Below, one piece after another: positions 16,615 to 16,687 of a stretch of DNA of 34,818 nucleotides. Under the pieces are notes generated by a model. The model worked only from the letters and a program-made list of their open reading frames with translations, searched no databases and was not told the origin of the DNA. Made by a program: the position numbers and the translations under genes. Source of the DNA: Cytophagaceae bacterium (GTDB taxonomy: Bacteria > Bacteroidota > Bacteroidia > Bacteroidales > Marinilabiliaceae); assembly GCA_031285765.1 (NCBI GenBank), contig JAITVO010000150.1, positions 1 through 34,818 on the forward strand, in the 5' to 3' direction. The stretch's first letter is position 1. Each line of letters starts with the position of its first letter.

Positions 16615-16687
16615 GCGGAAATAGCTCAGTTGGTAGAGCACGACCTTGCTAAGGTCGGGGTCGCGAGTTCGAGTCTCGTTTTCCGCT
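16615..16687 (+). tRNA. Class-I tRNA with Gly-type body and GCU (Ser) anticodon
   Basis: A complete 73-nt cloverleaf: acceptor GCGGAAA/TTTCCGC, D-stem GCTC/GAGC, anticodon stem CGACC/GGTCG, T-arm GCGAG TTCGAGT CTCGT. The anticodon loop reads TTGCTAA, so the anticodon is GCU, which would decode serine AGC/AGU. Yet the variable loop is only five bases (GGGTC) while bacterial tRNA-Ser has a long variable arm. The first base pairs G1-C72 and C2-G71 plus U73 are bacterial glycine identity elements. From memory the body matches Bacteroidota tRNA-Gly(GCC), differing at C36 to U. It may be a real missense-type tRNA, a decaying copy or a sequence error. It is the first of a two-tRNA transcript with tRNA-Leu. 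Confidence 0.85.

Follow-up and report, generated by a model that had tools for sequence, protein, structure and literature searches.

A tRNA-Gly gene carrying a GCU anticodon in a draft Bacteroidota genome: private mutation or consensus error?

What does a bacterial tRNA gene represent when its body is that of a glycine tRNA and its anticodon, GCU, is that of a serine tRNA? The question is posed by a gene lying in the window (the whole stretch of 34,818 nucleotides of DNA that was analysed), which makes up contig C145 of a draft genome in 372 contigs (G000; 3.36 Mb, 89.6% complete). The gene and the elements surrounding it are listed in Table 1. Elsewhere in the window are found a 2436-amino-acid predicted secreted protein with choice-of-anchor Q domains (5608-12918, plus strand), whose C-terminus matches a type IX secretion sorting domain slightly below the cut-off, and, on the minus strand (31834-34013), a grasp-with-spasm peptide-maturation pair whose ATP-grasp (TIGR04192) and SPASM (TIGR04193) members both score above the cut-off and near which lies a short C39-peptidase ORF (30362-30790).

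Table 1. Features of the tRNA transcription unit and their positions in the window
Feature	Position	Strand	Evidence
Bacteroidota-type promoter match, TTTG-N18-TAnnTTTG	16575..16604	+	Pattern match; 10 bases upstream of the tRNA gene
tRNA gene, tRNA-Gly body with anticodon GCU	16615..16687	+	Rfam tRNA 69.9 bits, full length; ARAGORN gct; Gly and Ser models
Anticodon GCT	16648..16650	+	Alignment to the C257 copy and 25 family tRNA-Gly(GCC) genes
Normal tRNA-Leu(UAA), downstream partner in the pair	16703..16787	+	Rfam 60.2 bits; ARAGORN taa
Intrinsic terminator (T run after a 15-bp hairpin)	16794..16832	+	Fold -15.4 kcal/mol, z -5.5

The tRNA is a complete class I molecule with a 7-bp acceptor stem, a 5-bp T stem and a 5-nt variable loop, and its fold has a z score of -3.1. 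The determinants of bacterial glycine identity are U73, G1-C72, C2-G71, G3-C70, C35 and C36 (PMC9976931); the four residing in the acceptor end are all present and C35 is kept, whereas C36 is replaced by U36, the changed base being the T at 16650 (tRNA position n corresponds to window base 16614+n). A tRNA-Ser(GCU), on the other hand, belongs to class II and has a long variable arm and G73; instead of these the gene has its 5-nt loop and U73, the feature that it shares with tRNA-Ser(GCU) being the anticodon. It is from the anticodon alone that ARAGORN names it tRNA-Ser(gct). When isotype covariance models were built for this analysis from relatives' genes, the family tRNA-Gly model gave the gene 104.7 bits vs 106.7 for normal members, whereas the tRNA-Ser(GCU) model gave it 38.0 bits vs 108-111 for true members, so that the glycine score exceeds the serine score, as the initial annotation had expected. 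That annotation had described a glycine body with a GCU anticodon, and every detail of it that could be checked in the sequence was right: judged from its sequence, the gene is a tRNA-Gly gene with a single altered base.

The same base is singled out by comparison with other copies. The initial annotation had called for a search of the genome for a further tRNA-Gly(GCC), and a normal one is indeed found there (C257:2569-2641, adjoining tRNA-Leu(GAG)), its 73 bases identical to those of the altered gene except for C36; both tRNA-Gly(GCC) genes of G001, the sole other genome of the genus compared, are likewise identical to it apart from C36, and these copies bear out the proposal that the body is that of Bacteroidota tRNA-Gly(GCC) with C36 changed to U. 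The exact 73-base GCC body is in fact common to the second copy and to other genomes. C36 is invariant in the aligned tRNA-Gly(GCC) genes of the family (25/25), and in all 29 of the other Gly-Leu(UAA) loci examined in relatives, the same-genus genome included, the orthologous gene keeps the ancestral anticodon GCC, U36 being seen among them in G000 alone. Compared with the tRNA-Gly(GCC) of this Bacteroidota pair, the gene is alike in 72 of 73 bases, in gene order and in promoter type, and unlike in having U36 and GCU in the place of C36 and GCC. Beyond the pair, gene order is not conserved in G001.

The pair had been claimed to form an intact unit with its own promoter and terminator, and intact it appears by pattern match and fold. 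Neither element was picked up by the built-in scans for promoters and terminators; they were detected by the Bacteroidota promoter pattern and by folding. The pattern occurs at four sites in the window vs 1.8 expected, and similar motifs precede six of the eight relatives' or paralogous tRNA-Gly genes checked; the terminator hairpin proper spans 16794-16829, 3' of tRNA-Leu(UAA). About 160 bases past the terminator begins an intergenic 21-bp tandem array (16993-17225, 11 copies), a different intergenic array of the same period being found at 27066-27253 (9 copies) and a 42-bp array at 614-765.

Whether the genome has a regular tRNA for AGC and AGU was addressed by whole-genome model searches scoring the best 150 candidates per genome. 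Neither the Rfam model nor a dedicated covariance model found a class II tRNA-Ser(GCU) in the G000 draft, nor did an anticodon-loop pattern or a blastn search with a relative's gene, and the place that tRNA-Ser(GCU) commonly occupies, upstream of tRNA-Pro(UGG) (C39:4285-4360 in G000), is empty in both G000 and G001. Relocation beside a SPOR/PD40 gene, its neighbour in two relatives (G032 and G033), was considered and rejected: G000 and G001 have a homologue of that gene with no tRNA adjoining. G001 is thus likewise without a detected tRNA-Ser(GCU), though its tRNA-Gly genes are normal. The 38 tRNAs found in G000 do not include tRNA-Asp, tRNA-Ala, Ile(GAU), Thr(UGU) or Leu(UAG); because these are missing as well, and because G001 lacks the serine gene too, its absence says little about a loss and is probably due, in both genomes, to incomplete assembly. 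Apart from the altered gene, all the tRNAs found in G000 bear the expected anticodons.

The use of the AGY codons was examined in ClpC (ORF 27381-29921) with the orthologues of 29 family genomes; those of Ddl, RluD and the PASTA protein were not found in the relatives' loci compared. In 493 comparisons at 17 aligned AGY codons the relatives have serine in 73% and glycine in 10% of the cases. Taking each relative in turn as the reference yields 55-81% serine and 2-17% glycine (mean 8%), and among the 30 proteins G000 ranks 11th for glycine and 9th for serine. Its shares being well inside the relatives' ranges, AGC and AGU, as far as this one protein can tell, still mean serine in this genome, and a reassignment of AGY to glycine was rejected on the same alignment with serine as in relatives. 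Glycine decoding of ClpC AGT codons 54 and 177, which fall in mostly-glycine columns, was likewise discarded, the relatives' AGY codons behaving alike; AGY codons in glycine columns are indeed expected there too from one-step AGY-GGY mutation.

How rare is such a gene? A pattern describing a glycine body with a GCT anticodon was run over 84,980 species genomes and matched one other gene; the reach of the pattern is fair, not full, its GCC version matching 173 of the 395 genomes sampled in the phylum. The second case is found in the metagenome-assembled genome (MAG) of Chlorobium sp. bin.97 (JABMPC010000068.1, L074:5469-5541, minus strand), a MAG in which a normal class II tRNA-Ser(GCU) is present and tRNA-Gly(GCC) was not found; for a gene set devoid of a cognate GGC/GGU tRNA, an error or a gap is the easier explanation. 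In no case was the exact GCU form the best match among the 21,432 tRNA-Gly matches from E. coli (5,375 complete genomes), the viral scan for the pattern gave none, and the phage and plasmid collections contained no exact match (best 96-97%). Two cases among the many genes screened are what is expected of a rare mutation or a rare consensus error, not of a conserved system.

The reading that we favour, with a probability of roughly 0.47, is that a recent, lineage-private C36-to-U mutation or a strain polymorphism affects a tRNA-Gly(GCC) gene that has a redundant second copy. The gene would be transcribed and its product matured; through U36, GlyRS would lose one of its two determinants in the anticodon and keep U73 and those of the acceptor stem, so that charging with glycine would be poor. 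The charged molecules would pair with AGC and AGU in competition with tRNA-Ser(GCU), causing low-level serine-to-glycine missense with no selected function, and the change would be tolerable because the intact copy on C257 would keep up GGC/GGU decoding. As AGC and AGU amount to 31 per 1000 codons in the main ORFs of the window, an active missense tRNA would impose a cost, and selection should act against it. A real private mutation and a consensus error are about equally likely, the latter being a strong contender according to which the gene is truly an ordinary tRNA-Gly(GCC), the T at 16650 stemming from sequencing error, strain mixture or a choice in the assembly graph. That both GCU cases sit in draft metagenome-type assemblies speaks for error and against mutation, all the more as the Chlorobium MAG yielded no tRNA-Gly(GCC); the fragmented and incomplete state of the draft, the absence of the GCU form from the complete E. 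coli genomes and the occurrence of the exact GCC body in the second copy and in other genomes, which invites mis-assembly, point the same way. On the other hand, the contig is otherwise clean, its long ORFs (ClpC and the 2436-amino-acid protein) being open, the remaining tRNAs show no anomalous anticodon, and the chance that a lone difference falls in the anticodon is 3/73, about 4%, a figure subject to a look-elsewhere effect since the location in the anticodon was the reason for which the case was picked.

The initial annotation had offered other outcomes: a missense tRNA if charged with glycine and, if uncharged, a decoy or a decaying gene. Of these, missense decoding stands as a possible reading that nothing but the base itself supports; neither for it nor for a decoy are there signs of conservation or selection, since every relative examined has GCC in the same pair, an intact copy serves as back-up and the AGY codons align with serine. 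Apart from the one base nothing speaks for decay, the remaining body being unchanged. That U36 has become fixed, is expressed and persists because glycine at AGC/AGU or some secondary role, for instance as a decoy, is useful agrees with the undecayed body, the intact promoter, partner gene and terminator and the second case in Chlorobium; with U36 not common to the genus or family and ClpC AGY use not shifted towards glycine positions, it is very improbable. A still bolder version, in which part of the AGC and AGU codons would be read as glycine under a Gly/Ser-ambiguous code and Chlorobium would be a second independent origin, is very hard to credit. Nor is there much more to be said for charging by ArgRS or ThrRS, with arginine or threonine being inserted at AGY codons: C35-U36 are arginine determinants and U36, G1-C72 and C2-G71 threonine determinants (table of PMC9976931), but U20 and U73 take the place of the A20 and A/G73 usual for arginine, C35 that of the G35 of threonine, and the glycine determinants of the acceptor stem are retained, making this outcome highly unlikely. 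Least credible of all, at the very bottom of the scale, is a functional serine tRNA that has replaced a lost class II tRNA-Ser(GCU) in reading AGC/AGU. The failure to find the latter in G000 or G001, with its usual place vacant in both, would fit such a succession, but the gene lacks the long variable arm and has U73 rather than G73, the main requirements of bacterial SerRS (PMC9976931), and in G001, where the glycine copies are GCC, the serine gene is missing as well, which indicates a gap of the assembly, as do the other tRNAs that were not found in G000.

Should the private mutation be real and the gene expressed, its product would be, by analogy, a weakly glycylated missense tRNA resembling the E. 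coli suppressor of Carbon, Berg and Yanofsky, a tRNA-Gly changed from UCC to UCU (C36U) that inserts glycine at AGA (PMC8855846); minor mischarging by the arginine or threonine route is possible. A founding paper that PMC8855846 cites mentions altered aminoacylation rates in its title. Common to the two are C36U in a tRNA-Gly, the glycine body and a single anticodon change towards the codon of another amino acid, whereas the suppressor derives from the UCC isoacceptor and reads arginine AGA, and the gene described here derives from the GCC isoacceptor, concerns serine AGC/AGU and is known from the sequence of a natural draft genome alone. It also resembles the alloacceptor anticodon shifts (Rogers and Griffiths-Jones 2014, PMC3923123) and anticodon switching (Yona et al. 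2013, PMC3868979) in being an orthologous tRNA gene, recognised by synteny, with the anticodon of another amino acid; the identity and isoacceptor switches of these studies are mainly eukaryotic (8 of 416 bacteria have a switch, PMC3868979), and the body of the tRNA of the window cannot take serine identity. The allo-tRNAs, too, occur naturally in bacteria and combine a body with an anticodon that does not match it, but their acceptor domains measure 12 bp (8/4 or 9/3) and their identity is serine (PMC7609411), whereas the present tRNA has a canonical 7/5 class I glycine body. In kind, a tRNA-Gly with a C36U anticodon change is an already known thing.

Missense alleles of tRNA-Gly are familiar from laboratory suppressors. 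The main lesson for now is that ARAGORN labels a tRNA-Gly body as tRNA-Ser by its anticodon and that an anticodon differing by a single base in a draft assembly means nothing until reads support it. If real and fixed, the gene would be a natural allele of this sort in a wild bacterium, whose genome would then tolerate glycine at abundant serine codons and would offer a direct test case for ambiguous decoding.
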